Below, one piece after another: positions 697 through 24,715 of a stretch of 27,882 nt of DNA. The first letter of the stretch is position 1. Each line of letters begins with the position of its first letter. The stretch is taken from IMG/VR virus record IMGVR_UViG_3300037963_003942, positions 1-27,882 of that record; one strand, given 5' to 3'. A model generated the notes under the pieces. That model was not told the DNA's origin. It made no database searches and saw only the letters and a list, made by a program, of their open reading frames with translations. Position numbers and translations under genes: made by a program. The stretch comes from a virus.

Positions 697-714
697 TCGT
701 GCAGAAAGTTGGGA

Positions 715-751
715 CAGCGGATCGGCTCTGGTGGCTGATCCGCTGTTTTTC
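715..751 (+). terminator. Rho-independent terminator after the scaffold gene
   Basis: AGCGGATC (715-722) pairs perfectly with GATCCGCT (737-744), and a T-run follows directly at 745. The same element recurs at 2073 and 2971, and in weaker form at 21124, each time just upstream of a promoter-operator. Confidence 0.85.
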
Positions 752-774
752 TTTGGTTTTTCTTTACCGTATTT

Positions 775-804
775 GATGCACGGCGGGCAACACCTAGTTA
801 TTAC
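775..804 (+). promoter_or_regulatory. Operator 1 with overlapping promoter
   Basis: The 17-bp imperfect palindrome GATGCACGGCGGGCAAC (775-791) matches the window-wide family GTTGC-N7-GCAAC. ATGCAC (776-781) could act as -35, and TATTAC (799-804) as -10 with a 17-bp spacer. The first accessory gene starts 26 bp further on behind a GGAGG site. Promoter activity is inferred. Confidence 0.6.
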
Positions 805-829
805 ACCAGTGTCAACAACGGAGGACAAC

Positions 830-1186
830 ATGGAAGCGACAGCAACAACAACACGAAACATCGGGATGGACGGAGTCGGTATGCCTTATTTTTACGAGGC
901 CGAGATGGTAGAGATTCGTAGCGACGAAGATCCTCTTTACGTCGCGTATCTTCCGACAGTCGTTATCGCGATTGTAGTAGACGGCGCGACTTATACTCTT
1001 AAGGGTTTTGCAGCGGTCGATCATGATCAGCGAGAGGCGCACGCTCAAGCTCACGAGATGGTCGCTAAGGTTCTTCGTCGAGGCGTCGTTAATCTTCAGC
1101 ATTGGGCTCGCGAAGCCACTTACGAGGAGCGAGCTATCGACGGTACAGAGGAAGCGGAAGCGATGGACGAGGCGCGGGGGTGGTAA
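830..1186 (+). CDS. Small accessory protein, paralogue of the gene at 1693
   Basis: The protein has 118 residues and is of unknown function. The ATG at 830 is chosen because it follows the standard GGAGGACAAC site; the in-frame upstream codons run through the terminator and operator. After a Thr/Ala-rich start (EATATTTRN) comes a compact alpha/beta sequence with GVGMPYFYEAEM, YTLKGFAAVDHDQ and GVVNLQHW. It aligns over most of its length with the protein at 1693-2064 (GVGIPYPHEGDM, YTLGGFAVRDRDE, GVIDLQHW), so the two are tandem-duplicated relatives. Codons are visibly more T-rich than in the structural genes (for example GTAGAGATTCGTAGC). There is no signal peptide or membrane segment. Confidence 0.8.
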   Translation: MEATATTTRNIGMDGVGMPYFYEAEMVEIRSDEDPLYVAYLPTVVIAIVVDGATYTLKGFAAVDHDQREAHAQAHEMVAKVLRRGVVNLQHWAREATYEERAIDGTEEAEAMDEARGW

Positions 1187-1206
1187 TCACCCCGCCCTCT
1201 CGGGTC

Positions 1207-1225
1207 TGGGGATGATGCCTCCCCA
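1207..1225 (+). promoter_or_regulatory. Intergenic hairpin
   Basis: TGGGGA (1207-1212) and TCCCCA (1220-1225) form a 6-bp stem with a 7-nt loop, without a T-run. It occupies the place where other gene pairs of this region carry the GGCCCC/GGGGCC tetraloop hairpin, so it may be a sequence-unrelated equivalent. Confidence 0.4.
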
Positions 1226-1270
1226 CTGATGATGGCCACGGCAGGCCGAAACCCACAGACAGAGGACAAC

Positions 1271-1648
1271 ATGACAACGACAGCAACTTTCAAGACAGTG
1301 CCACACGTCAACCGATACGGATACGTCCCGCAGCGCGAGATCGGTCAGGGCGTGTCTAAGGTTCAAGTTACAGAAACGGACGACGGTTATCACTTGTGGG
1401 CATGGGATCGACTCGTGTTTAGCGGTCCCTGTCATCGTTTTGTTCACCCGCACGCTTTTGCTTCTCACGACGCGGCGCTTCAGTTTCGAGATAAGGTCAA
1501 CGATCACGGCGAGATCGATTCTTCTCTTTGGGTCCGTCAGGTTCACGTCGCGTCCTTCGAGATGGCCGAGCGTTCTCGTAAGGCGCGCGACGAGTGGCAC
1601 AACGACGCCGAAGAGATTCGCGGCGAAGCAGAGATAAACGCTTATTGA
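1271..1648 (+). CDS. Small accessory protein of unknown function
   Basis: This 125-residue protein starts at 1271 behind GAGGACAAC; the earlier in-frame ATG at 1229 has no such site. The N-terminus is Thr-rich (MTTTATFKTV). The body contains aromatic and His residues (GYHLWAWDRLVFSGPCHRFVHPHAF) and ends in a charged helix with MAERSRKARDEWHNDAEEI. I do not recognise a family. It is the second gene of the first accessory operon, between the two paralogues at 830 and 1693. Codon use is T-rich compared with the structural genes. Confidence 0.75.
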   Translation: MTTTATFKTVPHVNRYGYVPQREIGQGVSKVQVTETDDGYHLWAWDRLVFSGPCHRFVHPHAFASHDAALQFRDKVNDHGEIDSSLWVRQVHVASFEMAERSRKARDEWHNDAEEIRGEAEINAY

Positions 1649-1654
1649 TTCAAA

Positions 1655-1692
1655 CCGGCCCCGCAAGGGGCCACAGCGCCCGGGAGGACAAC
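1655..1692 (+). repeat. Hairpin-SD cassette, GCAA loop
   Basis: GGCCCC-GCAA-GGGGCC (1657-1672) is a perfect 6-bp stem closed by a GNRA-class tetraloop. CACAGCG follows, then CCCGGGAGGACAAC directly before the ATG at 1693. The same arrangement precedes the genes at 2388, 2648, 3488, 21890, 24101, 24474 and 24743. Confidence 0.85.
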
Positions 1693-2064
1693 ATGACAAC
1701 AGCGGCAGCAACAACAGGGGCAACGGTTCGGAGGATAGCGACACAGGGCGTCGGCATCCCCTACCCTCACGAGGGAGATATGAGCGTGATCCGCGTTCAT
1801 ACGGAGGACGGCGAGGATCAGTTTTACACCCCTTGGATCCGCATCTCGATCGACGTGGACGATCAGCGCTACACCTTGGGTGGGTTCGCGGTCCGTGACC
1901 GGGACGAGTGCAAGTCATACGCGAAGGCGAGCAGACTCATCGCGAAGATCCTCGATCGCGGCGTGATCGATCTTCAGCACTGGGATCGTTACATCTCGTA
2001 TCAGGAGTCATGCGAGAACGGCGACCTCGCAGCGTGGGAGATGGCGCAGGAGGACGCATGGTGA
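1693..2064 (+). CDS. Small accessory protein, paralogue of the gene at 830
   Basis: The protein has 123 residues and starts behind the hairpin-SD cassette. A Thr/Ala-rich leader (MTTAAATTGATVRR) precedes a conserved core shared with 830-1186: GVGIPYPHEGDM, then predicted strands around WIRISIDVDDQRYTLGGFAV, a helix, and GVIDLQHWDRYISYQE. It ends in an acidic, Trp-containing tail (AAWEMAQEDAW). The function is unknown. The shared core and matching length indicate a duplication with divergence. It is the last gene before a terminator. Confidence 0.8.
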   Translation: MTTAAATTGATVRRIATQGVGIPYPHEGDMSVIRVHTEDGEDQFYTPWIRISIDVDDQRYTLGGFAVRDRDECKSYAKASRLIAKILDRGVIDLQHWDRYISYQESCENGDLAAWEMAQEDAW

Positions 2065-2072
2065 TCGCATTG

Positions 2073-2105
2073 CGGATCGGCTGTGGTGGCCGGTCCGTTG
2101 TTTTT
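2073..2105 (+). terminator. Rho-independent terminator
   Basis: CGGATCGGC (2073-2081) pairs with GCCGGTCCG (2089-2097; one G-T pair), followed by a T-rich run from about 2098. It is homologous to the terminators at 715 and 2971, with a compensated stem. Confidence 0.8.
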
Positions 2106-2118
2106 CTTTGGTGTATGT

Positions 2119-2149
2119 GTTGCACGTTAGACAACAAGTAGGATAAGAC
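2119..2149 (+). promoter_or_regulatory. Operator 2 with overlapping promoter
   Basis: GTTGCACGTTAGACAAC (2119-2135) is one mismatch from a perfect GTTGC-N7-GCAAC palindrome. TTGCAC (2120-2125) is a plausible -35, with an AT-rich -10-like TAAGAC at 2144-2149 or ATAAGA one base earlier. The next gene starts at 2175 with ACGGAGGACAACATG. Confidence 0.65.
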
Positions 2150-2174
2150 ACCAACGTCAGCAACGGAGGACAAC

Positions 2175-2342
2175 ATGAAACAAGGCAAAGCAAAACTGTT
2201 CAACGGACGCAAGGACATCGACGGGTGCTTCCACCGAGGCAAGTCAGGCCGGAAGGCTCGGCAGGCGAAAGCGCACAAGCGAGCGATCGAGCGTCAACTC
2301 CGACAGGCTTCTAAGGCGATGTGTCGAGCGGCGTATCGTTAA
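2175..2342 (+). CDS. Small very basic protein (55 aa)
   Basis: The frame begins behind ACGGAGGACAAC and encodes 55 residues, MKQGKAKLFNGRKDIDGCFH onwards. Roughly a third are Lys or Arg, with a helical C-terminal half (RKARQAKAHKRAIERQLRQA). There is no Thr-rich leader. Charge and size suggest nucleic-acid binding, but no family is recognised. It is the first gene of the second accessory operon, and its stop at 2340-2342 is followed within 10 bp by a hairpin-SD cassette. Confidence 0.7.
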   Translation: MKQGKAKLFNGRKDIDGCFHRGKSGRKARQAKAHKRAIERQLRQASKAMCRAAYR

Positions 2343-2349
2343 CCACTCA

Positions 2350-2387
2350 CCGGCCCCGAAAGGGGCCACAGCGTCCGGGAGGACACA
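2350..2387 (+). repeat. Hairpin-SD cassette, GAAA loop
   Basis: GGCCCC-GAAA-GGGGCC (2352-2367), another GNRA loop, then CACAGCGTCCGGGAGGACAC and the ATG at 2388. GTCC-GGGA-GGAC within it can form a second 4-bp mini-hairpin holding the ribosome site. Confidence 0.85.
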
Positions 2388-2609
<222 letters not shown>

Positions 2610-2616
2610 CCACTCA

Positions 2617-2647
2617 CCGGCCCCAAAAGGGGCCACAGGAGGACAGC
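2617..2647 (+). repeat. Hairpin-SD cassette, AAAA loop
   Basis: GGCCCC-AAAA-GGGGCC (2619-2634) followed by a shortened linker CACAGGAGGACAGC and the ATG at 2648. The GTCC part of the longer cassette is absent. Confidence 0.8.
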
Positions 2648-2953
2648 ATGGCAGGAACAAACCACATATGGCCCGAACCCCTACAGTCTGAGATCCCCGA
2701 TGGGAAGTCCGGGCGGTGGGCCTACTACATCCACTACGAGACATGGGTCGCCACCGCTCACTTCGACACAGACGAGGATTGCGTCAGGTGGTGCGAGGCG
2801 GACGTCCAGTGGGCCGGAGGCGGGCGCGTGCTGTTCGCCTCTACATGGCGAAACCACGTCCGAGACGGCGCCGGAGGGGTCAGCGGTGGCCGAGACGCTC
2901 GGCGCGTCTGGGTAGATCGGGGCAAGCTGGATCGGTTCCTCGACCGCGAATGA
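2648..2953 (+). CDS. Small accessory protein of unknown function
   Basis: This 101-residue protein starts behind the cassette ribosome site; longer in-frame extension upstream would run through the previous gene. It is rich in Trp and acidic residues: GRWAYYIHYETWVATAHF, then DEDCVRWCEADVQWAGGGRVLFA, then a positively charged end (RRVWVDRGKLDRFLDRE). The order of predicted strands and helices would fit a small alpha/beta sandwich. I recognise no family. It is the last gene before the terminator at 2971. Confidence 0.75.
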   Translation: MAGTNHIWPEPLQSEIPDGKSGRWAYYIHYETWVATAHFDTDEDCVRWCEADVQWAGGGRVLFASTWRNHVRDGAGGVSGGRDARRVWVDRGKLDRFLDRE

Positions 2954-2970
2954 TCGCAAAAAGATCGCGC

Positions 2971-3010
2971 AGCGGATCGGCTCTGGTGGCTAATCCGCTG
3001 TTTTTCTTTT
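2971..3010 (+). terminator. Rho-independent terminator
   Basis: AGCGGAT-CGG-CTCTGGTGGC-TA-ATCCGCT: AGCGGAT (2971-2977) pairs with ATCCGCT (2993-2999), and a T-rich run follows. It is nearly identical in sequence to the terminator at 715. Confidence 0.85.
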
Positions 3011-3029
3011 GGTTTTCTTTGCCGTATAT

Positions 3030-3060
3030 GTTGCACGCTAGGCAACAAACGGACTATAGT
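3030..3060 (+). promoter_or_regulatory. Operator 3 with clear promoter
   Basis: GTTGCACGCTAGGCAAC (3030-3046) is a perfect GTTGC-N7-GCAAC palindrome. TTGCAC (3031-3036) and TATAGT (3055-3060) are separated by 18 bp, the best -35/-10 pair of the family. The palindrome covers the -35 and most of the spacer, the place where a bound repressor would block RNA polymerase. Confidence 0.75.
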
Positions 3061-3101
3061 CAAAACGTAACCAACAACAACACACCCACACGGGAGACAA
3101 C

Positions 3102-3440
3102 ATGACAACGACAACAACAACAACAACGACGACAGAAGCACCGATGACAGCCCTCGAGGAGACTCGTCGACTAATCGACATGCCTCGGCTCTGGGATCTC
3201 AAGACCAACATCCAAAGATACACGGATGCAGAAATGGCAGACGACGGTCCAATCAACGTTAATCTTTGGCTGAACGCTCCCGGCGAGGGGCCGCGAGTTA
3301 CAATCAAACTCTACAACGACTACGCCCACAACACCGAGCGCGAGGCGCAGGTTATGGCGGCTATGGTCAAGATGGGCGCGGAGACAGGTCACGCTCCATA
3401 TTGGCACGACGCGACTACTATCGCTTTCATGGACATCTAA
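3102..3440 (+). CDS. Small accessory protein with polythreonine start
   Basis: The protein has 112 residues. M1 is followed by ten threonines encoded by ACA/ACG repeats (3105-3134), then EAPMTALEETRRLIDMPRLW. The body has INVNLWLNAPGEGPRVTIKLYNDY and a C-terminal region with AAMVKMGAETGHAPYWHDAT. No family is recognised. The upstream leader (3062-3101) lacks G almost entirely and is A/C-rich, continuing the unstructured character into the gene. An internal Met at about residue 15 could be a second start but lacks a ribosome site. Confidence 0.75.
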   Translation: MTTTTTTTTTTEAPMTALEETRRLIDMPRLWDLKTNIQRYTDAEMADDGPINVNLWLNAPGEGPRVTIKLYNDYAHNTEREAQVMAAMVKMGAETGHAPYWHDATTIAFMDI

Positions 3441-3449
3441 GACAACAAC

Positions 3450-3487
3450 CCGGCCCCGCAAGGGGCCACAGCGTCCGGGAGGACAAC
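3450..3487 (+). repeat. Hairpin-SD cassette, GCAA loop
   Basis: GGCCCC-GCAA-GGGGCC (3452-3467), then CACAGCGTCCGGGAGGACAAC and the ATG at 3488. The preceding TAAGACAACAACC is also shared with the cassettes at 21853 and 24063. Confidence 0.85.
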
Positions 3488-3787
3488 ATGACAACGAAGC
3501 AACAAAGACAACAAGCCGTTTTCCTTCTAACTCAAGCCATCGAGCACATGACGCGGGAGCCGGTCGAGACTGCCAGCCTTATTCATGCGCGGCTAGCTCT
3601 CGGAGATGCGGCTCGACCCCGCACGACATCCGTGCAGCCCACCATCGATGCCATGAACGAGATCATGATCGACCACATCCTGCCCGCGCTGTCGGAGGCA
3701 GCAGGCCACACCGTGATCGATGACCCGTCTCCGTTCATGTTTAAGATGGGAGGCGACACGATCGGCGATCTAGAACGCGGCGTATGA
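3488..3787 (+). CDS. Small helical accessory protein
   Basis: This 99-residue protein starts behind the cassette. It is Gln-rich at the N-terminus (MTTKQQRQQAVFLLTQAIEH), mostly helical by pattern, and ends MFKMGGDTIGDLERGV. There are no Cys, membrane segments or recognisable motifs. It is the last gene of the island before the capsid leader region. The function is unknown. Confidence 0.7.
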   Translation: MTTKQQRQQAVFLLTQAIEHMTREPVETASLIHARLALGDAARPRTTSVQPTIDAMNEIMIDHILPALSEAAGHTVIDDPSPFMFKMGGDTIGDLERGV

Positions 3788-3960
3788 TCGCAACTACCTC
3801 AGCTAAGACAACAACCGGCCCCGCAGGGGGCCACATCATCGGCCGACGTTGCACGTCCTCGCCCTAGTGGGTTAGGGCGTGGTTGTCGTTACGGGTCACG
3901 CCCCGGTCAAGTGCGGATTGCACGACAGATCCACACATTGACCAGTAAGGAGGCCCACAC
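3788..3960 (+). promoter_or_regulatory. Capsid gene leader with two hairpins
   Basis: This gene-free stretch holds GGCCCC-GCAG-GGGGCC (3817-3832), a cassette hairpin lacking its ribosome site. A second perfect 7-bp stem CGCCCTA/TAGGGCG (3860-3866 and 3873-3879) has loop GTGGGT. A half operator GTTGCACG sits at 3848-3855 and TTGCACGACAG at 3919-3929. The leader ends in TAAGGAGG, the strongest ribosome site in the window. I see no convincing -35/-10 pair, so whether the capsid gene has its own promoter is open. Confidence 0.5.
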
Positions 3961-4908
3961 ATGGCCACTATCTCATCGCCGTTTATCAATAACGACATCG
4001 AAGCTCAGGTAGGTTTTGCCTACACATTCGCTGAGCAAGCTATTCTAGACCGGCTAGCGGACCGCTTGAACGTGCTACCCATCGTTCAGTTGGTCGGAGA
4101 CGCAGCAGGCACAGGCTCAGACACCATCCGCGTCAGTAACATTGGGGGCTTGGGCTACAACGCAAGCATGAGCGCGCTAGGATCGGAGACTGCCACGATC
4201 ACCGCCAGCACTATGGATCTGGGCTTCAGTACCTGTAGCATCGCAGATTATGGCCTCGCCTACGAAGAGAGCTACAAGGCGGCGATCCTCGCTCGCGAGC
4301 CTCAAGTCCTGATCGACTCGATCGTTGAGACTATCCCCGATGCATGGCTGAAGCAGATGCGCACCCTCGTTGCAACCGAGATCGCGGCGTTCTCGTCCAG
4401 CGTTGGATCGGCTTCGCTCACCCTGAGCGTTGACGACTACCTCGACCTGATCGCAGTGTACCGCGAGGCCCTCGGCTCTCGTCTTCCGGCTGTCATGCTG
4501 CACCCTGTGCAGTTGTCTCAGTTGGTCGAGTCCTTCCGAAGCGAACCAGCGTTCCAAGCCAACATGACAGACTTCGCAAGCGTGCAAGCGTTCAACGAGT
4601 CCCAGACGGTCACCAACGCTTTCGGCCTCGGCGCGGACATCCACATCTCGGACAGTGTGACGACAAGCGGCGGCGGCTACAACGGCGGCGCGTTTACCCC
4701 GGGCGGCATCGGCTACGCAGTAGCGAGCACCGGCAATCTTCGGACCGCCAACCCGGCGACGAGCATCCTCGTCCCCGAGTTTGGACTGGTCATCGAGGAC
4801 CTGCAGTCAAATACGGGTACTCGTCGCGTAGACGCTCGGGCATTTTTCGGCGTTGCAGCGGGCTCATCGGACGTCTACACGTTCCGTAAGGTCGTATCGA
4901 CTACATAG
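3961..4908 (+). CDS. Major capsid protein
   Basis: This 315-residue protein is the probable HK97-fold coat subunit. It starts NNDIEAQVGFAYTFAEQAIL, followed by strand-rich segments (TIRVSNIGGLGYNASMSALG) and a long helical stretch (about 105-145, including ILAREPQVLIDSIVETIPDA) like the spine helix. It ends with beta-rich repeats (LVPEFGLVIEDLQSNTGTRR, then YTFRKV). Length, absence of enzymatic motifs, the strong TAAGGAGG site and the position downstream of a scaffold-like gene and upstream of connector genes support the call. No N-terminal cleaved delta domain is apparent, consistent with a separate scaffold. Exact family membership was not tested. Confidence 0.8.
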   Translation: MATISSPFINNDIEAQVGFAYTFAEQAILDRLADRLNVLPIVQLVGDAAGTGSDTIRVSNIGGLGYNASMSALGSETATITASTMDLGFSTCSIADYGLAYEESYKAAILAREPQVLIDSIVETIPDAWLKQMRTLVATEIAAFSSSVGSASLTLSVDDYLDLIAVYREALGSRLPAVMLHPVQLSQLVESFRSEPAFQANMTDFASVQAFNESQTVTNAFGLGADIHISDSVTTSGGGYNGGAFTPGGIGYAVASTGNLRTANPATSILVPEFGLVIEDLQSNTGTRRVDARAFFGVAAGSSDVYTFRKVVSTT

Positions 4909-11435: not shown

Positions 11436-14400
11436 ATGGCACGGATCGACAGGACAGCAGTCGGGATCGGCATCGTCGATCCAAGGTGGACCGAGGCCAA
11501 CATCTCGACCACTTACTCCACCTACTCAGAAGAGGGGCCACGCCCCGGAGGAGCCGAGGCGGCGAGCAGTCTGCAGGGTGGCGTCCCCGTGATCAGTGGA
11601 GCGCAAGCGGCCGATCTCGACGTCAAGGTGACCAAGAATGGGAACCCGTCGATCGCTACTCGCGGCGCGGCGGTCGTATGGAAGCGGACGACAGACACGG
11701 ACAACGCGTGGCGGGGATGGGCGGGGCCACAGTTCGCCGCTAGCTATCGTCCGGTATTGCGAACAGGGAACGACATCCGAGACGTTGACATCTGCACGAC
11801 GCCCGGAACGCAGACGCCGATCGCGATGGTCAAGGACAGCGCCGAGCTACGCACTCGGAAGATGAACATGGACACGATGGAGTTCTCGGCGTCCGTTGTC
11901 GTGGCCACAACGACAGCGCGATCGGCGTCCATCTGCGCACTCCCTGACGATACGGCTCTCGTCTTTGTGGCGGACTCGACCGCTGGACTTAGCAAAGCCT
12001 ACAAGAGCACGAGCGACGGCGCGACATGGGCGGCTTGGTCGGACGACATCTTCCCCGATGGTCAGCCAGCAAACACGCCGACGTCCTTCCGGGTCAGATA
12101 CCAAGAGGGGCAAATGATCGCGGTCTACGAGACGAGCGCATCGGGCGGGGAGATCACCACCTACTCGAGCGCGGACTTTGGGCAGACGTTCCAAGCCGTG
12201 TCCACCTTCGCGGGGACAGCGGTCGGGCTCGGCGTCACGAAGGCAGGGACAGCGATCATATCGTACACAGCGAAGAGGGATCCGAGCGATCCGTCCTCTC
12301 CGGATGACATGTTCGTTAAGCGTCTCGGGGCGTCCTTTGCTCGGGCGGACTCAGCCAGCGCGATCACGGTTCAGACTTCATACGACCCGATGAGCACATC
12401 GATCCACGCAGACGACGACGGGCGGATCTACCTTCTGTCATACGAGAATGATGTCGCATTCAACCACCGAGTCGAGGTGAGGGTGAGCGACGACGACGGG
12501 CGATCATGGCGGCTCCTCGACAACAGTCCGATCGGAGACAGCACGAGCGGATCGGCGACCAACGTCGTACCGACTCGATCGCAGATGACGACAGCCGAGG
12601 GGATGGGCTTCGTCGTGTCAGCGTTCCCCGACGACACGGCGGGAGACATCGCGGGCTGTCACATCACTTGCGGCTGGACCAACTTTGTACCCGGCACGAC
12701 TCACACCGAGAAGACCCGGCTCGGGGCTATTGATGTCGACTACACGGCGCAGGGGACACACTCGCCAAGCAGCACCGATCAGAACACCTCCCTGACTCAT
12801 CAGATGTTTGCCCGTGGCGCGTCATGGACGGGCGCCTATGGCTATGCGTTTTCGATCCCGGTCGTCACTACTACAGACGACGCATACCTTGACCACACTG
12901 GCGGCAGCATTATCCGCGCCGTTCTTGGCTCCACTTATACAGACGGGGATCCGATCCTTGTTATGCTGAGCGCCAAAAAGACAGCCGACGACTCCTCCCT
13001 TGACACGCTCTACGCTCTCGGGGTGCGCACGACGGGGCAAAAATACCGGATCGGCATATCGATCGGGCTTGCTCAGTACAGAATCGCCCACGCTGGCGGC
13101 TCGACTATCATCACTCGCGACATGAGCGAACACTTCGACATGGCGATCTACAGCGTCGGGTCGACCTTCCGGGTCTACCATCGAGCCCACCCCGGCGAGG
13201 CTTGGATCTTGGCCGCGCAGGTAACCGGAACCGGGACCACTTCTCTACTTGTTGCGGGGTGGCGGGCGCTGCCTTTGTCAAACGCTACCCGCATCCGATC
13301 GCTGTCGGTCTATTGTGGCGGGCAGGCGATGCGATGGTCGGGCGATGGCGCGCAGCAGATGATCGGGAAGCGAGTCGCGTCGAACGGCTACCCGCTGATG
13401 TATCAGGGTGCCACAGTCACACCGAGCAGGCTCGCGATGACGGGCGGATTCAGTCGCCAAGTGCTAGCAACAACGGCGCGATCGTGGTCCATACCAGCCG
13501 ATCACGACTACCCGGTCGCGCGTATCTTCTCAAAGTCACCGAGCCCGGACGAGCGATGGCGAGCACAGGACGCAACCCAGCAGACGATCGTGTGTGACTT
13601 TGGGACCGACAGTGTTCTCGATGAGTCGCTCCCGTTTATGCTTGTGCGCGGCGCCAACTTCCAACAAATCGAGTTCAGAGCACGGACAGCGGCAGGAGCG
13701 GCGGCGACCCTTTACACGGCGGATCTGTCGGTTCTGACGGGCGCGGCCTACTCGCTCGGCGGGAACGTCCTAACCCCAACGGCGACCGGAGCGTCGACGG
13801 CTCGGTCGTTTGGTTCGGATGAGTTGGCGGGCGGGTATGCCATCATCACAGACGGATCGACGACCGACTATCGCAAGATCGCAAGCAACCGACCTGGCAC
13901 CTTTGACAACGCGGGATCGGTGGTCTGTCAGATCAGACTCGAGGGCATCACCGGAACGGAGCCAGCGACGGGGACCGTGACCGTCGTCGCGCCCGAAGCG
14001 CTGATCCTGCTTCCGGAGTACACCGGGACAAAATACCGATATTGGGGCGCGCAAATCAAAGCGACCAACGTCTCCGAGTCCTTCATCTCGGCAGGGTCGA
14101 TCGTGCTCGGCTCGGTCGTCGTCCCCGGCAAGCGTTGGGGGAACGGGTGGACGATGCGAACGGAGCCCAACGTCGAGCGTGTGGCGGACTCGAGCGGTAC
14201 GCTAACCGTCCGACAGAAGGGGCCGAACCGGCGGGTGTTGTCGTGGTCATGGGATGACGGGATGATTCAGAAGCGATACCAAGGAGCGGCGGGCGCATCG
14301 GCCGACCACGTTTCGGCGGGAGCGGGGCGGACGCCCCTCGCGATGGATCAGGACGTCTGGCGTCAGATGCGAGCGGTCACCGACCGGGCCAAAGGCGGCG

Positions 14401-14576
14401 AGGAGTTGGTCGTCGCGTGTCTTGCCATCCCTGCAGCCAACACGACGATCACGGATAAGACGCTCTACGTCGCCGGGTTCTTAGACACAGGGTTCCAAGT
14501 GGCCCAAGTGTCCGGAGAGTCCGGGGTCGATGAGTTTGTCCGGGTCGAGACGATGACACTCACGGAGGCGGTGTGA
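11436..14576 (+). CDS. Large tail protein with sialidase-like Asp-box propeller
   Basis: This 1046-residue protein follows the tape measure, so it is a tail-tip or distal tail component. Three Asp-box motifs (S-x-D-x-G-x-T/S-W/F) occur near residues 191 (SDGATW), 245 (SADFGQTF) and 351 (SDDDGRSW), the mark of sialidase-type beta-propellers. An intermediate region (about 440-640) is lectin-like in character. The C-terminus (900-1046) has RRVLSWSWDDGMIQKRYQGA and ends before a coupled gene. Likely host receptor binding. No sialidase catalytic triad was identified, so enzymatic activity is not claimed. Confidence 0.7.
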   Translation: MARIDRTAVGIGIVDPRWTEANISTTYSTYSEEGPRPGGAEAASSLQGGVPVISGAQAADLDVKVTKNGNPSIATRGAAVVWKRTTDTDNAWRGWAGPQFAASYRPVLRTGNDIRDVDICTTPGTQTPIAMVKDSAELRTRKMNMDTMEFSASVVVATTTARSASICALPDDTALVFVADSTAGLSKAYKSTSDGATWAAWSDDIFPDGQPANTPTSFRVRYQEGQMIAVYETSASGGEITTYSSADFGQTFQAVSTFAGTAVGLGVTKAGTAIISYTAKRDPSDPSSPDDMFVKRLGASFARADSASAITVQTSYDPMSTSIHADDDGRIYLLSYENDVAFNHRVEVRVSDDDGRSWRLLDNSPIGDSTSGSATNVVPTRSQMTTAEGMGFVVSAFPDDTAGDIAGCHITCGWTNFVPGTTHTEKTRLGAIDVDYTAQGTHSPSSTDQNTSLTHQMFARGASWTGAYGYAFSIPVVTTTDDAYLDHTGGSIIRAVLGSTYTDGDPILVMLSAKKTADDSSLDTLYALGVRTTGQKYRIGISIGLAQYRIAHAGGSTIITRDMSEHFDMAIYSVGSTFRVYHRAHPGEAWILAAQVTGTGTTSLLVAGWRALPLSNATRIRSLSVYCGGQAMRWSGDGAQQMIGKRVASNGYPLMYQGATVTPSRLAMTGGFSRQVLATTARSWSIPADHDYPVARIFSKSPSPDERWRAQDATQQTIVCDFGTDSVLDESLPFMLVRGANFQQIEFRARTAAGAAATLYTADLSVLTGAAYSLGGNVLTPTATGASTARSFGSDELAGGYAIITDGSTTDYRKIASNRPGTFDNAGSVVCQIRLEGITGTEPATGTVTVVAPEALILLPEYTGTKYRYWGAQIKATNVSESFISAGSIVLGSVVVPGKRWGNGWTMRTEPNVERVADSSGTLTVRQKGPNRRVLSWSWDDGMIQKRYQGAAGASADHVSAGAGRTPLAMDQDVWRQMRAVTDRAKGGEELVVACLAIPAANTTITDKTLYVAGFLDTGFQVAQVSGESGVDEFVRVETMTLTEAV

Positions 14577-17076: not shown

Positions 17077-17370
17077 ATGGCCGACCTCGAAGGAAGAGTC
17101 CACCGTCTCGAGTTGTCCGTCGTGGAGATCCGGGAGAAAATGGCGGCGATGACCACCGAGCAGCGCCACATCCTCGACACCGTACAACGCATCGAGGGCT
17201 CGGTCGCGGCAGTCAAGAAGTCGGTCGACGACATGCCCACCATAGCGAAGGCGCTGCACGATCCGAAAGTCGTCCTGATGCTGTTCGCGATGTTTGGAGG
17301 CGCGGCGGGAGCCGACACCGTGATCGGCAACCTCATGGCCTCGGCGCCCGTAGCGGAGGCCGCACCGTGA
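17077..17370 (+). CDS. Coiled-coil membrane protein, XhlA/holin-like architecture
   Basis: The protein has 97 residues. An N-terminal coiled coil (about 3-60; HRLELSVVEIREKMAAMTTE) is followed by one hydrophobic segment (about 68-88; VVLMLFAMFGGAAGADTVIG) and a short Ala/Pro tail. Short coiled-coil plus C-terminal membrane helix is the layout of XhlA-type lysis accessory proteins, and the gene lies after the tail genes where lysis genes commonly sit. AAGGAG precedes the ATG. Membrane anchoring is inferred from hydrophobicity only. Confidence 0.5.
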   Translation: MADLEGRVHRLELSVVEIREKMAAMTTEQRHILDTVQRIEGSVAAVKKSVDDMPTIAKALHDPKVVLMLFAMFGGAAGADTVIGNLMASAPVAEAAP

Positions 17371-18737
17371 CCCCGGCCGATCTCGTCGATCGGTATGAAC
17401 AACAGATCAGGCACGCGATCGGAGTGGATGGGCTAGGACACCGAACACTAGCCAAGAGGCTCACGGAGTTGTCGGGGACCTACGTCACCATGTGGAAGGC
17501 GCGCAAGGTTCGGGAGATCATCGGCCTATCCCCAACGCCGCGACCGAAGCCGGAGGAGCGGCAGCAGATCAGTCGGACAGCGCCAGACGCCATGACGCAG
17601 ACGCTCGAAGCGAAGGGAGGCCGGATCCGTACACTAGCGGACCTGCTCGACGCGGCAGGGGTCGACCTGACGCAGTGGAAGGTCGAGACGTGGAAGGCGA
17701 ACGCATACGAACAAGCGCAGAAGGGCGAGGACGGGCCCCGGCTCATCACCCTGCACCAAGTCAAGGCGACCCTCCGTCGACACTTCAGCGCGACGCTACG
17801 ACCCGCGAGAGCGCCCGTCACGCTACCACCTCCCGAAGACGTCGAGCGCCCACCCGCCCCCCTCTGTGTCTTCATACCGGACACACAGGTCGGTCACCGA
17901 TTCCGGAAGCGGTGGTCCTATCTTGACCCAATGCACGACCGTGTCGCGATGGACTGCGTCGTCCGTACCCTCGAGCGGATGGACCCGAAGCCGGAGGTGG
18001 TGGCGCTCTTAGGGGACATGGCAGATCTCGCAAGTCTTAGCCGGTATCCGTCCGACATCTCTCTCCGGGGCACGACCCAAGCCACGATCGACGAGTTGCA
18101 CTGGTGGCTTGCTCAGATCCGGCTCGCGGTCGGAGGGGCGACCCGTATCGTCTACATGGCCGGGAACCACGAGAAGCGCGTCGAGGTCAGCATGATCCCC
18201 AGTGACCTCGAGGGACTCGTCGCAGCGAAGGAAGAGGATCCACTTCTGACCCTTCGCCGGTTGCTTCGGTTGGATGAGCTACAGATCGAGTACGTCGGGC
18301 CATATGGCGCCGACTGGTGGCTCTGGGATGGCAAGGTGCAAGTCACACACGGGAACACCGTTAGAAGCGGGGGAGGGGCGACCGCTGCCTCCGTCGTCAA
18401 GGGTCTAACGACTGCCTCTCAGGTCTTCGGCCACATCCACCGGCTCGAGCTAGCCTGTCGAACGGTCCACGGCCCAGAGGGCGAGCGGGTGCTTGTTGCG
18501 ATGTCGCCCGGGTGCCTTTGCAGGACGTCGGGCGGAGACGGTCCGCCGGGGTTCAGCGACGCGGGCCGGGACTGGCAGCAGGGGATTGGGATCGCCTACT
18601 TGCACGAGGATCGCGTCCACATGTCGACGATCCCCATCCACGCGGGATCTCTCGTCTGGGAGGGGGAGATCGTGACCGGGCGGGATAGAGTGGAGGAGTT
18701 GATCGAGGCTACCGGGTGGGAACAGTTCAGAGGGTGA
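17367..18737 (+). CDS. Calcineurin-like metallophosphoesterase with N-terminal HTH-like region
   Basis: The protein has 456 residues, with a GTG start overlapping the previous stop as GTGA. Metal-ligand motifs of the family appear in order: D172-x-Q174 with H177 (DTQVGH, Gln in place of the usual His), G216-D217, G-N267-H268-E269, H328 (THGN) and G-H356-x-H358. The first ~50 residues (GLGHRTLAKRLTELSGTYVT) resemble a helix-turn-helix, and ~50-160 is a charged helical linker. The family cleaves phosphodiester or phosphomonoester bonds. Substrate here is unknown; a DNA or RNA end is plausible given the HTH-like part. Its place in the late block is odd. Confidence 0.75.
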   Translation: MTPADLVDRYEQQIRHAIGVDGLGHRTLAKRLTELSGTYVTMWKARKVREIIGLSPTPRPKPEERQQISRTAPDAMTQTLEAKGGRIRTLADLLDAAGVDLTQWKVETWKANAYEQAQKGEDGPRLITLHQVKATLRRHFSATLRPARAPVTLPPPEDVERPPAPLCVFIPDTQVGHRFRKRWSYLDPMHDRVAMDCVVRTLERMDPKPEVVALLGDMADLASLSRYPSDISLRGTTQATIDELHWWLAQIRLAVGGATRIVYMAGNHEKRVEVSMIPSDLEGLVAAKEEDPLLTLRRLLRLDELQIEYVGPYGADWWLWDGKVQVTHGNTVRSGGGATAASVVKGLTTASQVFGHIHRLELACRTVHGPEGERVLVAMSPGCLCRTSGGDGPPGFSDAGRDWQQGIGIAYLHEDRVHMSTIPIHAGSLVWEGEIVTGRDRVEELIEATGWEQFRG

Positions 18738-19266: not shown

Positions 19267-19706
19267 TGCACGTCTTCGGAGTGTAGATCGCGGAACGCTC
19301 GCAACTCGGCCCGGACGTCGGGCAGTCCTCGGCACAGCGCCCAAGCAGCAGCGATCCCGGGGGACGCTCCCCATCCCATGAGGCGTGTCCGGGGCGGGGA
19401 CGCTACCGGCTTCAACCACACCTCATAGCCTCCAGCCCTCGACCGTCCGATCTGGACAGGCGCCGGAGCCAACTCCACGACCCGGGCCATAATGGCGCCA
19501 GCGGTCGCGGGGTCATCCAGATCGGGAAGACCGGCGGACGATTGCTCGGACGTGCCGACTTTGCTCGAGTCGTATCTCCACGGGTTGAATATCCCCGCAG
19601 GATGGCGACAGAGCATCCCGTCGGCCCACTTCCAAAGCGGAGAGCCCGCCACCTCTCGGAGAAACGGGAGCAGGTCCTCGAAAGTATACTCCCTACTCCT
19701 CCCCAT
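19263..19706 (-). CDS. Unknown protein co-transcribed with the repressor
   Basis: The protein has 147 residues. It starts at 19706 inside the end of the repressor gene (14-bp overlap), with GGAGGTGG in the repressor's last codons as ribosome site. It is Trp/Pro-rich (GSPLWKWADGMLCRHPAGIF, NPWRYDSSKVG) and later has GGYEVWLKPVASPPRTRLMG and a helical C-terminus. No family is recognised. Operon partner of an XRE repressor, so an immunity-associated or toxin-like role is possible, but nothing in the sequence proves it. Confidence 0.7.
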   Translation of the reverse strand: MGRSREYTFEDLLPFLREVAGSPLWKWADGMLCRHPAGIFNPWRYDSSKVGTSEQSSAGLPDLDDPATAGAIMARVVELAPAPVQIGRSRAGGYEVWLKPVASPPRTRLMGWGASPGIAAAWALCRGLPDVRAELRAFRDLHSEDVH

Positions 19707-19962
19707 CGGCCACCTCCGGCTCCGGCTCTACGATGCCCGCATAGACACGACAAGCGGCCGACATCTTCCGGCCCTTGAGCCCTAACGCCTTACAGATCCC
19801 GGCCCAGTTGTCGCGGCTCGGCACCTTCTGACCTGACAGCCACCGCGAGACAGTGCTCCGGTTGACTGGCAAGCCGAGATCACGCAATGCGCGACAGAGG
19901 TCGGACTGGCTCATGTCCTTGTCTTCTAGGTGTTTTCTGATCACATCTTCGATCGTCTTCAT
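19693..19962 (-). CDS. XRE-family HTH repressor candidate
   Basis: The protein has 89 residues. The start at 19962 is chosen because TAAGGAGGGCAAC lies directly upstream; codons further 5' would run through the operators. Residues 17-62 form a typical Cro/CI helix-turn-helix (MSQSDLCRALRDLGLPVNRS then TVSRWLSGQKVP), followed by a short basic part and an acidic tail (EPEPEVADGEE). It lacks a LexA/CI-type cleavage domain. Divergent from the accessory genes with operators in between, it is the best candidate to bind the GTTGC-N7-GCAAC sites, including one in front of itself. Binding is inferred. Confidence 0.8.
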   Translation of the reverse strand: MKTIEDVIRKHLEDKDMSQSDLCRALRDLGLPVNRSTVSRWLSGQKVPSRDNWAGICKALGLKGRKMSAACRVYAGIVEPEPEVADGEE

Positions 19963-20009: not shown

Positions 20010-20026
20010 GTTGCAAGTCGAGCAAC
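20010..20026. promoter_or_regulatory. Operator 4, repressor promoter region
   Basis: GTTGCAAGTCGAGCAAC is a perfect GTTGC-N7-GCAAC palindrome about 50 bp upstream of the repressor start, placed to control the leftward promoter. A convincing leftward -10 was not identified. Confidence 0.7.
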
Positions 20027-20031
20027 AGAAC

Positions 20032-20050
20032 ACAAGATCGATCGTCTTGT
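20032..20050. promoter_or_regulatory. Central palindrome of the divergent control region
   Basis: ACAAGA-TCGATCG-TCTTGT has 6-bp arms around a self-complementary CGATCG and is followed by TGTTTTTG. It may be a further binding site or a weak terminator. Confidence 0.45.
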
Positions 20051-20060
20051 TGTTTTTGTT

Positions 20061-20090
20061 GTTGCCTATGAGGGAACAACGAAGTAAGGT
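20061..20090 (+). promoter_or_regulatory. Operator 5 with rightward promoter
   Basis: GTTGCCTATGAGGGAAC (20061-20077) is an imperfect copy of the 17-bp operator, nested in a larger inverted repeat GTTGTT...AACAAC. TTGCCT (20062-20067) and TAAGGT (20085-20090) are 17 bp apart. The gene at 20119 follows with ACGGAGGACAACATG. Confidence 0.6.
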
Positions 20091-20118: not shown

Positions 20119-21105
20119 ATGACAACGACAGCAGCAACATACAGCCGACTAGCAGCACCCAAGGGAACCAAGGTTACCTGCCCCTGTTGCCTCAAGAAGC
20201 ACAACGCCAAGACGGACGGCACACTGACCCGCCACGGATGGAAGGAGACAGGGCGGACGGTCGGAAGCTACGGCAACGGCTACCAGTGGGGCGAGTGCGC
20301 AGGGTGGGACCGACGACCACTCGAGCAGACGGACGCGGACGCTCTCGCGATTATCGACATCATCGAGGCGGACATCCCGAAGATGGAGGCGGACCTCGAG
20401 CACCACGAGACGACCCAGCAGACATACACGCACCGGAGCGAGGTTACCTACTACGACGGCAACAGGGACGGCGAAATGGACGCGGGCTTCGTCGCGATGT
20501 CCGAGGCCGGGGCGGATGTCTCGGAGGGCACAGTCCGCAGGGTTAGCCACGTCGTCCGACATATCCCGGCGCTGATCGCCTTGTGGTCGGTTGAGCCGGG
20601 GGCAGATGTGCGAAGGGTCAGCGATGGATCTACGTTCGGCAAGGTCCGGATCCCATCATATACCGACGTCCGGTCGGCTTTTCTTGCGGACCTCAAAGGC
20701 CAGATCGAAAGCGCCAAGGCTCAGGTCGCATCGCTCCGAGAGGCTATCGCGACACACCGAGCGAACCCGGCGCCGTGGACCGGCGAGGAGCCCCCACAAG
20801 ACCCAACCCCGGCCCCTAGCGGGCCGAAGGGAGGCAAGGCCCCCAAGGTCTACAAGAAGAGCGCAGCGCCTCAGCGAGTCGAGCGCGTGTCGGACCTACT
20901 CCAGCGAGCGCGAGCCCTTATGCTCGCAGTCGTCGAGAACACCGAGGCCGACGACAGCCCGACAACACAGCGAGAAGCGGACAGCCTTCGGGCGCTGTGC
21001 AGTCAGGTCGAGAAGGCGGCGCGTCGACACTACGACGCAGCAGCAGCCGCAGGGCTCGAGGTCACCGGCTACCACTACGCGAAGGACCGGGAGCACTGGG
21101 AATAG
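20119..21105 (+). CDS. Zinc-binding accessory protein, first rightward gene
   Basis: The protein has 328 residues and starts behind the standard ACGGAGGACAAC; upstream in-frame codons lie in the promoter. A Thr/Ala leader (MTTTAATYSR) precedes a cysteine module, C21-x-C23-C24 (CPCCLKKHNAKTDGTLTRHG) with H39 and C60 (YQWGEC), resembling zinc modules of plasmid and phage proteins. Next come helical or coiled-coil segments (about 75-115 and 205-230), a Pro/Lys linker (235-275) and a helical C-terminus. No known enzyme motif. Being the first gene under the divergent operator, it is likely an early protein. Confidence 0.75.
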   Translation: MTTTAATYSRLAAPKGTKVTCPCCLKKHNAKTDGTLTRHGWKETGRTVGSYGNGYQWGECAGWDRRPLEQTDADALAIIDIIEADIPKMEADLEHHETTQQTYTHRSEVTYYDGNRDGEMDAGFVAMSEAGADVSEGTVRRVSHVVRHIPALIALWSVEPGADVRRVSDGSTFGKVRIPSYTDVRSAFLADLKGQIESAKAQVASLREAIATHRANPAPWTGEEPPQDPTPAPSGPKGGKAPKVYKKSAAPQRVERVSDLLQRARALMLAVVENTEADDSPTTQREADSLRALCSQVEKAARRHYDAAAAAGLEVTGYHYAKDREHWE

Positions 21106-21123
21106 GCAAAACGATCGCGACGG

Positions 21124-21155
21124 CGGATCCGCTATTGTGGCGGGTCCGTCTTCAC
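21124..21155 (+). terminator. Weak terminator, relative of 715/2073/2971
   Basis: CGGATCCGC (21124-21132) pairs with GCGGGTCCG (21140-21148; one G-T), but the T-run is interrupted (TCTTCAC). Same position relative to the following operator as in the other three. Confidence 0.55.
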
Positions 21156-21181
21156 GGTCTGCACTTTGTGGTAATTTAGTT

Positions 21182-21210
21182 GTTGCCTATCGGGCAGCAT
21201 GGATTAGATT
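21182..21210 (+). promoter_or_regulatory. Operator 6 with overlapping promoter
   Basis: GTTGCCTATCGGGCAGC (21182-21198) is one mismatch away from palindrome symmetry of the family. TTGCCT (21183-21188) and TAGATT (21205-21210) are 16 bp apart. The gene at 21239 follows behind ACGGAGGACAAC. Confidence 0.6.
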
Positions 21211-21238
21211 CTCATTGTAACCAACAACGGAGGACAAC

Positions 21239-21844
21239 ATGGCACGCAGCAAGAACCAAAGCATCACACTCGACGGCAAGACATACACCCGGACCGTTAC
21301 CGGGATTACGAGCGAGTACGTTTGGGCAAGCATGGACAAGCGCGAGACGGGGTGGGTCAAGATCGACGGATACAGGTACTTGGTCGAGCGTACCTACCAA
21401 TACGACGATCAAAGCTACACGCTGTGGACGCTTGTCGAGTACCGCGACGGAACGCGGCACGCTATCCCGTGCCGTAAGCGCGCCCCATCAGTCAAGATCA
21501 GCGCCGACGCTCGGGCGTGGCTTGCGGATGTCTTCGTCGGTCATGCTCTCCAAGTCATTGAATCGTGCGAGTACGCTACCGCAACGATGGTATATCACGA
21601 GCTTTTTAACGGCTTTGACGCCTACCACGCCGAGCGCCTCGCGGGCCGAGAGATTCCGGCAGATCTTAAGGCTCTCGACCTTTGGTGCAACTACGTCCCC
21701 GGCATCGAGAAGGCTGCAATGGTTAGCCGGATTAAGCGCGTACTCGATACCCAAGCCAAGTCCGACGCGGGCACGATCGGCCGATGCTATGCGATACAGA
21801 ACGGAAAAGAGGTTCTCGCATACTGCGCGCCCGCCACCTACTAG
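21239..21844 (+). CDS. Accessory protein of unknown function
   Basis: The protein has 201 residues and starts behind ACGGAGGACAAC. N-terminal beta-rich part (ITLDGKTYTRTVTGITSEYV, GWVKIDGYRYLVERTYQYDD), then a helical part with DARAWLADVFVGHALQVIES, KALDLWCNYVPGIEKAAMVS and a final strand. No family is recognised. Codons are again T-rich in places (GCTTTTTAACGGCTTTGACG) compared with the structural block. Confidence 0.75.
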   Translation: MARSKNQSITLDGKTYTRTVTGITSEYVWASMDKRETGWVKIDGYRYLVERTYQYDDQSYTLWTLVEYRDGTRHAIPCRKRAPSVKISADARAWLADVFVGHALQVIESCEYATATMVYHELFNGFDAYHAERLAGREIPADLKALDLWCNYVPGIEKAAMVSRIKRVLDTQAKSDAGTIGRCYAIQNGKEVLAYCAPATY

Positions 21845-21852
21845 ACAACAAC

Positions 21853-21889
21853 CCGGCCCCGCAAGGGGCCACCAACAAGAGAGGACAAC
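21853..21889 (+). repeat. Hairpin-SD cassette, GCAA loop
   Basis: GGCCCC-GCAA-GGGGCC (21855-21870) with upstream TAGACAACAACC, then CACCAACAAGAGAGGACAAC and the ATG at 21890. The linker differs from the GTCCGGGAGGAC type. Confidence 0.85.
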
Positions 21890-22009
21890 ATGACACACAT
21901 CACCCTACACTGGACCGAGGTCTGGGCTCTCATCGCCCTGTTCGGCATACAGACTGCCTTCCTCGGCCTCATGTGGCGCGATCGCGAGATGTGGAGGGCC
22001 GGACGATGA
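21890..22009 (+). CDS. Single-pass membrane micro-protein (39 aa)
   Basis: Starts behind GAGAGGACAAC. The 39 residues are MTHITLHWTEVWALIALFGI then QTAFLGLMWRDREMWRAGR. One hydrophobic helix (about 11-29) with a positively charged C-terminus suggests an inner-membrane protein with the C-terminus in the cytoplasm. It is coupled to the next gene (ATGA at 22006-22009). The function is unknown. It is a possible superinfection-exclusion type membrane peptide, but this is a guess by size and topology only. Confidence 0.6.
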   Translation: MTHITLHWTEVWALIALFGIQTAFLGLMWRDREMWRAGR

Positions 22010-22569
22010 GCGGCACCATCAAGATACATGGCAAGAGTTACGCTACCGTAGGCAAGCGGGTCCACGACTTCCGGAAGAAGTACCCCATCTCGAAGGGATG
22101 GGCGATCAAGACGGAGATCGTGATGATGGACGAGCGCGCCGTCGTCGTCAAGGCTTGGGTCGTCGACAACAGCGGTCACACGGTCGCTGTGGGCCATGCT
22201 GAGGAGGTCCGGGCAGCGTCTAAGATCAACAAGACGAGCGCCCTCGAGAACGCAGAGACGAGCGCTATCGGGCGAGCGCTTGCGGCGTCAGGCTACACAA
22301 TGGACGGGATCTACGCGACGGCGGACGAAGTACTCAAGGCACAGCGAGCCGAGAGGGCTCTCGCTGTTAAGGTCGGACCAGACGGCACACACGACACATG
22401 GCAGCAACTCGCCATCGATCGCGGCTACTCGGTGCCCAAGATCGTCGCCTACTTTAAGAAGAAGAAGAGCCCGATCCCCGACCCCAACAGCGACCGCTTT
22501 GATGGCTTCGTCGCGTGGCTAAACCAAGCGACCCCAGAGATGATCGATCTCTTTGGGAGGGACGAATGA
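22006..22569 (+). CDS. ssDNA annealing protein-like (Erf/Rad52-type) candidate
   Basis: The protein has 187 residues, starting at the ATGA overlap. The core has KGWAIKTEIVMMDERAVVVK, WVVDNSGHTVAVGHAEEV and the alanine-glycine helix KTSALENAETSAIGRALAAS followed by GYTMDGIYATADEV. This ENAETSAIGRALA-type motif is widespread in phage recombination proteins related to Erf/Rad52-like annealers. A C-terminal segment (KKKKSPIPDPNSDRFDGFVA) is extra. Position next to replication genes supports DNA recombination. The assignment rests on remembered motif, without a search. Confidence 0.6.
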   Translation: MSGTIKIHGKSYATVGKRVHDFRKKYPISKGWAIKTEIVMMDERAVVVKAWVVDNSGHTVAVGHAEEVRAASKINKTSALENAETSAIGRALAASGYTMDGIYATADEVLKAQRAERALAVKVGPDGTHDTWQQLAIDRGYSVPKIVAYFKKKKSPIPDPNSDRFDGFVAWLNQATPEMIDLFGRDE

Positions 22570-22910
22570 AGCGGAGCCAGATCGAGACAGTCAGGCAGCG
22601 CGGCGCTGTGATGGACGTCATCGCGTGCGGTCGATGGCATACGACGCGAGAGATCGCGGTCGCACTGCCTTGGGCAGTCCAAAACGTATGGCAAAGGCTC
22701 CGAGAGTTGGCGGCGATGGGCGTCGTCGACGTTCGATCGTTTGGTGGCACACCGTCACGACCAACGGAGTCACAGTGGCGAGCGTCTAGGAAGCCCCCAC
22801 AAGACGCCGAGCCGTCCGAGGTAGGCGCTACCATAGGCGAGCCGACAGGACACGCGAGAGACGCAACAGAGAGCCAAGGAGACACGCCGACGGGGGTGTC
22901 CGATGGCTAG
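22566..22910 (+). CDS. Winged-helix DNA-binding protein
   Basis: The protein has 114 residues; its start at 22566 overlaps the previous stop (ATGA). Residues 1-60 read as a winged helix (MKRSQIETVRQRGAVMDVIA, WHTTREIAVALPWAVQNVWQ, RLRELAAMGVVDVRSFGG), followed by a disordered Pro/Thr/Gly tail. Likely a DNA-binding regulator or replication accessory. It is an alternative regulator of the early operons, besides the XRE protein. It overlaps the initiator gene by 8 bp. Confidence 0.65.
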   Translation: MKRSQIETVRQRGAVMDVIACGRWHTTREIAVALPWAVQNVWQRLRELAAMGVVDVRSFGGTPSRPTESQWRASRKPPQDAEPSEVGATIGEPTGHARDATESQGDTPTGVSDG

Positions 22911-23718: not shown

Positions 23719-23736
23719 TCGATCTTGCGTGTTTGT

Positions 23737-23767
23737 GTTGCACGATAGACAACGGATAGGATACCAC
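23737..23767 (+). promoter_or_regulatory. Operator 7 with overlapping promoter
   Basis: GTTGCACGATAGACAAC (23737-23753) is one mismatch from a perfect copy of the operator. TTGCAC at 23738-23743 is followed by GGATAGGATACCAC, with a -10-like element (TAGGAT or TACCAC, 13 or 18 bp spacing) of uncertain identity. The gene at 23796 follows behind ACGGAGGACAAC. Confidence 0.6.
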
Positions 23768-23795
23768 ATCATCGTCAACAACGACGGAGGACAAC

Positions 23796-24053
23796 ATGAC
23801 AGGAATCAACGACAACACACTTGTAGTTACTGCGAACAAATACGGAACGATTTTTGTTGAAATGAACGGCAATCTTATAGCCGACAGCGCAACATGGAAC
23901 CGTAAGCGCGGTTTTTCGAACAAGATGACCGGCGAGTGGGTAAGCGCGCCAAAGTTTACAGCAAAAAAGATCAAGCAGAGTCCCGAGATGGTGGTTGAGT
24001 ACCTAGCGAAGACCGGCACGCTAACTGTCGCATCCGTGTTCTTGGCACTCTAA
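23796..24053 (+). CDS. Small accessory protein
   Basis: The protein has 85 residues, starting behind ACGGAGGACAAC under operator 7. It is MTGINDNTLVVTANKYGTIF, then FVEMNGNLIADSATWNRKRG and KKIKQSPEMVVEYLAKTGTL. N-terminal strands, a basic helical C-terminal half. Function unknown. Base composition is markedly AT-richer than in the structural genes (for instance ATTTTTGTTGAAATGAACGG). Confidence 0.7.
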   Translation: MTGINDNTLVVTANKYGTIFVEMNGNLIADSATWNRKRGFSNKMTGEWVSAPKFTAKKIKQSPEMVVEYLAKTGTLTVASVFLAL

Positions 24054-24062
24054 GACAACAAC

Positions 24063-24100
24063 CCGGCCCCCTCGGGGGCCATCACGTCCGGGAGGACAAC
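24063..24100 (+). repeat. Hairpin-SD cassette, CTCG loop
   Basis: GGCCCC-CTCG-GGGGCC (24065-24080), a YNMG-class loop, then CATCACGTCCGGGAGGACAAC and the ATG at 24101. GTCC-GGGA-GGAC is kept. Confidence 0.85.
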
Positions 24101-24430: not shown

Positions 24431-24435
24431 ATAAA

Positions 24436-24713: not shown

Positions 24714-24715
24714 CG

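Follow-up and report, generated by a model that had tools for sequence, protein, structure and literature searches.

The 27.9-kb virus record IMGVR_UViG_3300037963_003942 (27,882 nt, analysed over its whole length and called the window hereafter) is a fragment of a tailed phage that encodes a tape measure protein. It raises the question of what kind of genes occupy positions 697-3960, between a putative scaffold gene (70-696, whose product has a coiled-coil N-terminus and a basic C-terminus) and a putative major capsid (coat) gene (3961-4908). An earlier note on this DNA had described the gap as an accessory island of seven small genes. The gap itself was confirmed, whereas the count was not: it holds eight small open reading frames (ORFs), each preceded by a Shine-Dalgarno sequence. 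We consider it likely that the island consists of accessory-gene cassettes (morons) that are arrayed one after another and can be exchanged, and that it is not part of the capsid operon proper. It is regarded as horizontally exchanged because two of its genes, i4 and i5, are found in reversed order in the contig L055 of another phage and because varied gene pairs meet at one and the same hairpin. The names scaffold and coat are putative, since only gene position and order and sequence style speak for them, and profile and family searches with the two proteins gave no convincing family match; the conclusions on the cassettes hold independently of these names.

All eight genes, as well as the modules between them, lie on the plus strand: i1 (830-1186, 118 aa), i2 (1271-1648, 125 aa, with an MTTTA leader), i3 (1693-2064, 123 aa), i4 (2175-2342, 55 aa, basic), i5 (2388-2609, 73 aa, with a poly-Thr leader derived from an ACA repeat), i6 (2648-2953, 101 aa), i7 (3102-3440, 112 aa, with a poly-Thr leader) and i8 (3488-3787, 99 aa). 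The i5 protein is Cys/His-rich and, given this composition, possibly binds zinc. The genes form three predicted transcription units, each of which opens with the same terminator and palindromic operator-promoter (module A), while most genes within a unit are separated by a hairpin with a Shine-Dalgarno sequence (module B). The core genes of the window mostly overlap or nearly abut, and the cassette genes are spaced by joints of 29-148 nt that carry A or B modules.

Module B consists of a GGCCCC-tetraloop-GGGGCC hairpin just past the stop codon, which is closely followed by GGAGGACA and a start codon; the start-site consensus after the hairpin is GGAGGACAACATG. Copies were located at 1657-1695 (loop GCAA, with GGGAGGACAACATG), 2352-2390 (loop GAAA), 2619-2650 (loop AAAA) and 3452-3490 (loop GCAA), the latter three likewise with a Shine-Dalgarno sequence. 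A last hairpin, GGCCCC-GCAG-GGGGCC at 3817-3832, marks the right border of the island and carries neither a U tract nor a Shine-Dalgarno sequence. When GGAGGACAACATGA was searched at ≤3 mismatches, 22 occurrences were found against 2.3 expected, and none of 100 shuffles reached 22. Module B was also considered as a plus-strand intrinsic terminator, which was rejected for lack of a U tract. Most of its loops are of types that we take to be stable tetraloops (GCAA, GAAA, GGAA, TTCG, CTCG, CTTG), and this suggests a role at the RNA level. In several copies (2343-2390, 3441-3490, 24054-24103, 24431-24476) the Shine-Dalgarno sequence itself lies inside a 4-bp hairpin, GTCC-GGGA-GGAC, which is reminiscent of the GGAG sites in T4 early mRNAs that are cut by RegB.

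A search with the module B pattern yielded seven IMG/VR contigs, and a subsequent alignment search with i5 added L055. An i5 homologue stands directly before the hairpin in four of the seven contigs; the homologues in L032, L033, L035, L036 and L055 are 55-67% identical to i5, with L055 at 67%. The gene order in L055 is helicase - promoter - i5 - hairpin - i4 - D - ATPase, the reverse of the window with respect to i4 and i5. The two i4 genes share 94% amino acid and 87% nucleotide identity and differ by 20 synonymous and three nonsynonymous changes, a ratio that indicates purifying selection on i4. Apart from i4 and i5 (plus the hairpin), no window protein was convincingly matched in L055. The DNA homology between the two phages spans i5 together with its hairpin and stops just before the Shine-Dalgarno sequence, and that of i4 begins within the Shine-Dalgarno region of i4. 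This places the joint between the hairpin and the Shine-Dalgarno sequence. With i4 and i5 at another locus of other phages, in the opposite order and with the same hairpin joint, the view of the gap as an accessory island of regulated cassettes is borne out.

L055 belongs to a podovirus-like family, with helicases that are 83-91% identical, in which a single early-gene locus between helicase and RecB/ATPase has variable content. This interval reads X-hairpin-D in G008, i5-hairpin-D in L033 and L036, i5-hairpin-C in L032 and L035, Y-hairpin-C in L030 and L031 and i5-hairpin-i4-D in L055; no such hairpin is present in G002 and G003. Thus five gene combinations (i5-C, i5-D, i5-i4, Y-C, X-D) are all joined at GGCCCC-N4-GGGGCC, and since differing upstream and downstream genes meet at one joint, we regard this as the signature of recombination at the joint. 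The standard joints probably serve as recombination handles. Alternatively, they could be ordinary regulatory parts that are held alike by selection, with gene order changing through illegitimate recombination and the joints not acting as handles, a possibility that we take seriously but do not favour. The stable tetraloop classes (GNRA, TTCG, CTCG, CTTG) and the Shine-Dalgarno mini-hairpin suggest an RNA function, and the operator copies suggest selection for regulation. Yet the exchange points of all five combinations coincide at one joint, and in the sister phages the common block extends into the first codons (ATGGGATACGA) of C and D, two unrelated genes, which would not be expected from regulation alone. 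Both explanations are compatible with each other.

Two further features of these contigs were observed. The Y gene of L030 and L031, located on the minus strand before the hairpin (L030 9262-9277), starts with MTTADQLNAKQFYRGG and has ATGACAACAGC-type codons as in the window cassettes; its product presumably bears some resemblance to a small ADP-ribosyltransferase, and no Pfam match above threshold was obtained. In L033, L035 and L036, the i5 homologue is immediately preceded by tandem TTCTTGACATG/ATC repeats, which provide a series of -35-like boxes before a single TATACT box and vary between sister phages.

Growth of the island through tandem duplication inside the window phage, instead of import, was weighed against the gene content. 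Such a process would explain why i1 and i3 are paralogues (41% amino acid identity, E 2e-25) and why the module copies are close to one another. The other six island genes, in contrast, show no detectable relation to one another, and i1 and i3 themselves differ strongly in GC content at third codon positions (GC3; 0.50 versus 0.73). For i4 and i5, which are common to a different phage, duplication is largely refuted, and as an account of the island we find it very unlikely. Both i1 and i3 match the profile phrog_1507 (i3 E 3e-6; i1 weakly, E 0.004). The structure model of i1/i3, of low confidence with a predicted local distance difference test score (pLDDT) of 56, suggests that they may have a beta-beta-beta-alpha core, and it gave no significant Foldseek match.

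The position of the island within the head gene cluster could also mean that its genes are ancestral morphogenesis genes, such as decoration proteins or scaffold and coat chaperones, that merely have their own promoters, and no empty site was seen in a relative with the capsid of the window, as no such relative was found. Against this stand four observations. In the podovirus-like phages i4 and i5 are situated among helicase and ATPase genes and not among head genes; in the window the same modules flank replication-side genes; the putative scaffold and coat genes abut in G002 and G008, podovirus-like phages that have the cassettes or the metallophosphoesterase module in common with the window but whose capsid proteins are not detectably related to its own; and the GC3 of the island is unlike that of other genes. 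The AT-rich codons that had been pointed out in the genes at 830 and 1271 were recovered as GC3 values of 0.50 (i1) and 0.58 (i2) compared to about 0.75 in other genes. Overall, GC3 is lower in the island than in non-cassette genes (Mann-Whitney p = 0.0012), a composition unlike that of the neighbours as is typical of morons. We therefore judge an ancestral morphogenesis role to be improbable.

The units of the island are headed by module A. Module A1 (711-791) comprises a U-tract terminator (711-749) and the dyad ATGCACGGCGGGCAAC (776-791), module A2 (2072-2135) a terminator (2072-2098) and the dyad TTGCACGTTAGACAAC (2120-2135), and module A3 (2970-3046) a terminator (about 2970-3000) and the perfect dyad TTGCACGCTAGGCAAC (3031-3046) with TATAGT, the best -10 box, shortly downstream. 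The terminators fold with -27, -20.2 and -17.4 kcal/mol (z -6.7, -4.0 and -4.0), respectively, and a TTGC-N7-GCAAC dyad comes after every one of them (776, 2120 and 3031), in agreement with the three terminators and three operator-promoters that the earlier note had listed. At ≤1 mismatch the dyad was counted 17 times in the whole window, compared to a mean of 4.5 and a maximum of 13 in Markov sequence; the count covers both strands, and symmetric sites are therefore scored twice. In five of six units the ATG follows the dyad at a distance of 54-58 nt; in the remaining unit the spacing is 71 nt.

Modules of both kinds recur between 20011 and 24750. A single-domain Cro/C1-type helix-turn-helix regulator of 89 aa is encoded on the minus strand at 19693-19962 and is a candidate for binding the dyads; two of these (20011-20026 and 20062-20077) lie in the region of divergent promoters that separates the regulator from gene 20119. 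The space between these two dyads (about 20028-20055) contains an additional inverted repeat (AAGATCGATCGTCTTG-like), which is possibly a second operator. The second cassette region (20119-21198, plus strand) contains gene 20119-21105, a module-A-like hairpin (about 21122-21150) and the dyad TTGCCTATCGGGCAGC (21183-21198). It is followed on the same strand by the cassette gene 21239-21844 with a module B hairpin and Shine-Dalgarno sequence (to 21893), and, after an interruption by ordinary, tightly packed genes (22006-23718), by a stretch at 23738-25021 with a dyad (23738-23753), the cassette genes 23796, 24101, 24474 and 24743 and module B hairpins, the final copy being a shorter variant. This stretch leads into replication genes (DnaC-like, SSB, RuvC-like), which are located downstream of the 23738 dyad in the same direction. 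The proposals that the same style of genes recurs at 20119-25021 and that one class of cassettes is present at two loci are both upheld, as terminator, operator and hairpin modules of the same kind are found around the two loci.

Based on this arrangement, we propose that the basic unit is a Shine-Dalgarno sequence, a short ORF, a stop codon and a hairpin, and that such units are strung after a shared starter module of an intrinsic terminator and a promoter overlapping the TTGC-N7-GCAAC dyad. Cassettes would be swapped by homologous recombination at the near-identical joints. The starter terminator would shield the cassettes from late transcription, and the Cro/C1-type protein would bind the dyads, by which the island would be expressed together with the early and replication genes located behind the same dyads and not with the capsid genes; the simplest reading of the sequence is that the island genes are members of the early regulon even though they lie among late genes. 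Transcripts of the scaffold gene should end at the strong 711-749 terminator. The dependence of the coat gene on a promoter within or behind the island, as proposed in the earlier note, is plausible given this terminator and the TATAGT box at the third operator-promoter; transcription of the coat gene probably starts at the third promoter (3031) or at one within the coat leader. Reading from 3031 is conceivable because no U-tract terminator was found between 3046 and 3960; the leader (3838-3960) contains a strong hairpin (-28.9 kcal/mol for 3838-3900). At the RNA level, the module B hairpin may insulate or stabilise each cistron. Several genes of the island and of the second locus begin with Thr-rich runs of ACA/ACG codons, while the i5 homologues have no Thr run and begin with other residues, encoded by A/C-rich codons. 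The common feature is therefore the nucleotide composition near the start and not the protein, which would fit a role in translation; A/C-rich first codons, poly-Thr in the window, might keep the start region unstructured.

A more far-reaching and rather doubtful idea is exchange across phage families, in which the hairpin-Shine-Dalgarno joint would let small regulated genes move singly and with changing order between siphovirus-like and podovirus-like phages, docking even between scaffold and coat while still controlled by the early-gene regulator of the phage itself. If true, the joint would act as an acceptor site open to incoming genes, with a logic like that of integron cassette sites but served by phage homologous recombination.

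Several points weigh against the interpretation of the island as exchanged cassettes under operator control. The coat protein has no relative in IMG/VR, GTDB genomes or phage records, and insertion at the scaffold-coat site was thus not directly observed. Convincing homologues in the retrieved phages were obtained for only two of the eight island genes (i4 and i5), while i1 and i3 match the phrog_1507 profile only. The relatives are mostly short metagenomic contigs and may be chimeric, though several independent contigs concur. No module B is present in the gap 1186-1271, where other hairpins can fold, and covariation is unusable for module B because its stem is nearly invariant. The dyad consensus is imperfect, and three dyad sites at ≤1 mismatch that resemble chance matches lie inside genes (12668, 14422 and 23878). 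A strict sigma-70 promoter scan found no promoter, and the -35 resemblance to sigma-70 is poor.

Other searches returned little. The window coat had no match in the cassette-sharing podovirus-like phages, and its structure prediction from single sequence was uninformative (pLDDT 33). No matches were obtained for the tail protein 14573 and the DnaC-like protein in IMG/VR, for the tape measure, 6199 and 14573 proteins in phage records, for i1/i3 in GTDB genomes, or for i3, i4 and i5 in phage records. PADLOC gave no defence matches, and Rfam and tRNA scans found nothing. The exact 16-mer start-site pattern gave 13 single matches in IMG/VR, which were taken as chance, and a looser hairpin pattern gave 15 new loci (L040-L054) without homologous proteins, which were taken as chance or convergent. 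Elsewhere in the window, a 1046-aa protein (11436-14576) whose sole family match is a weak BNR/Asp-box repeat (Pfam E 0.003) is a possible sialidase-like tail or receptor-binding protein. At 17077-18737, a module of a small coiled-coil gene and a metallophosphoesterase is common to the podovirus-like phages L022, L030 and L032. The metallophosphoesterase is 45-51% identical between these and the window, coat and tail genes are not in common, and distant relatives are found in Microbacterium and Clavibacter phages.

Small 'ORFan' genes fill much of phage genomes, and how they move has mostly been a matter of inference. In the present case the sequences directly show the unit of exchange and its joint, with different gene pairs at one joint in sister phages and two genes reversed in a mostly unrelated phage. 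The joint can be used as a searchable tag for finding accessory genes in uncultured phages, and the idea of recombination handles becomes testable. In addition, genes adjoining capsid genes need not be capsid genes, which calls for caution in synteny-based annotation.

Comparable arrangements have been described. The T4-type PeSL 'mobile regulatory cassettes' (Arbiol et al. 2010, via PMC3950731) are, as summarised in the latter source, repeated intergenic modules of promoter and stem-loop beside small variable genes and were proposed to drive gene shuffling. Modules A and B are likewise repeated intergenic promoters and stem-loops, analogous in arrangement and not homologous in sequence, and genes are exchanged at the module, as seen from the five combinations at one joint and the reversal in L055. 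In comparison with the PeSL as outlined there, the island uses two modules, a terminator with operator-promoter between operons and a tetraloop hairpin with Shine-Dalgarno sequence between cistrons; a dyad operator is accompanied by a candidate regulator, one array is situated within the cluster of head genes, and the cassettes are common to phages with otherwise mostly unrelated genomes. The T4 early promoter of T4-type phages has no counterpart here, as the scanned core proteins give no T4-type assignment. By analogy, the island works like a PeSL and is not a PeSL member. The SAS/ESAS of cluster K mycobacteriophages (PMC3203893) are also repeats at the translation starts of some small genes, about half of them with an upstream inverted repeat. 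The 13-bp SAS is GGGATAGGAGCCC, which differs from the start-site consensus of the window, GGAGGACAACATG; in the island the hairpin comes after the stop codon of the cassette before it, and genes are seen to be swapped at the joint. The 17-bp dyads of cluster O mycobacteriophages (PMC4351075) are similar in having many copies per genome, with deletions between copies inferred; their authors think transcriptional regulation unlikely, whereas in the window the dyads precede a cassette start by 54-71 nt or belong to the promoter region of the regulator. Phage morons (as defined in PMC2147016) are genes of recent acquisition that carry promoters and terminators of their own. In the island the terminators are strong and the promoter-operators repeated, the sigma-70 scan being negative, and it differs in being an eight-gene run, divided into three units that each begin with an operator and linked by standard joints that can be interchanged. 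In the haloarchaeal tailed virus HGTV-1 (PMC3950731) a conserved promoter-like motif and an inverted repeat precede many ORFs and were proposed to aid shuffling; the promoter is of the archaeal type, and the likeness considered here is one of arrangement. Taken together, the island is known in kind from the T4 PeSL, HGTV-1 and the cluster K SAS/ESAS, while its new aspects are how the joint is built, the reshuffling that can be seen directly and the location between the scaffold and coat genes.

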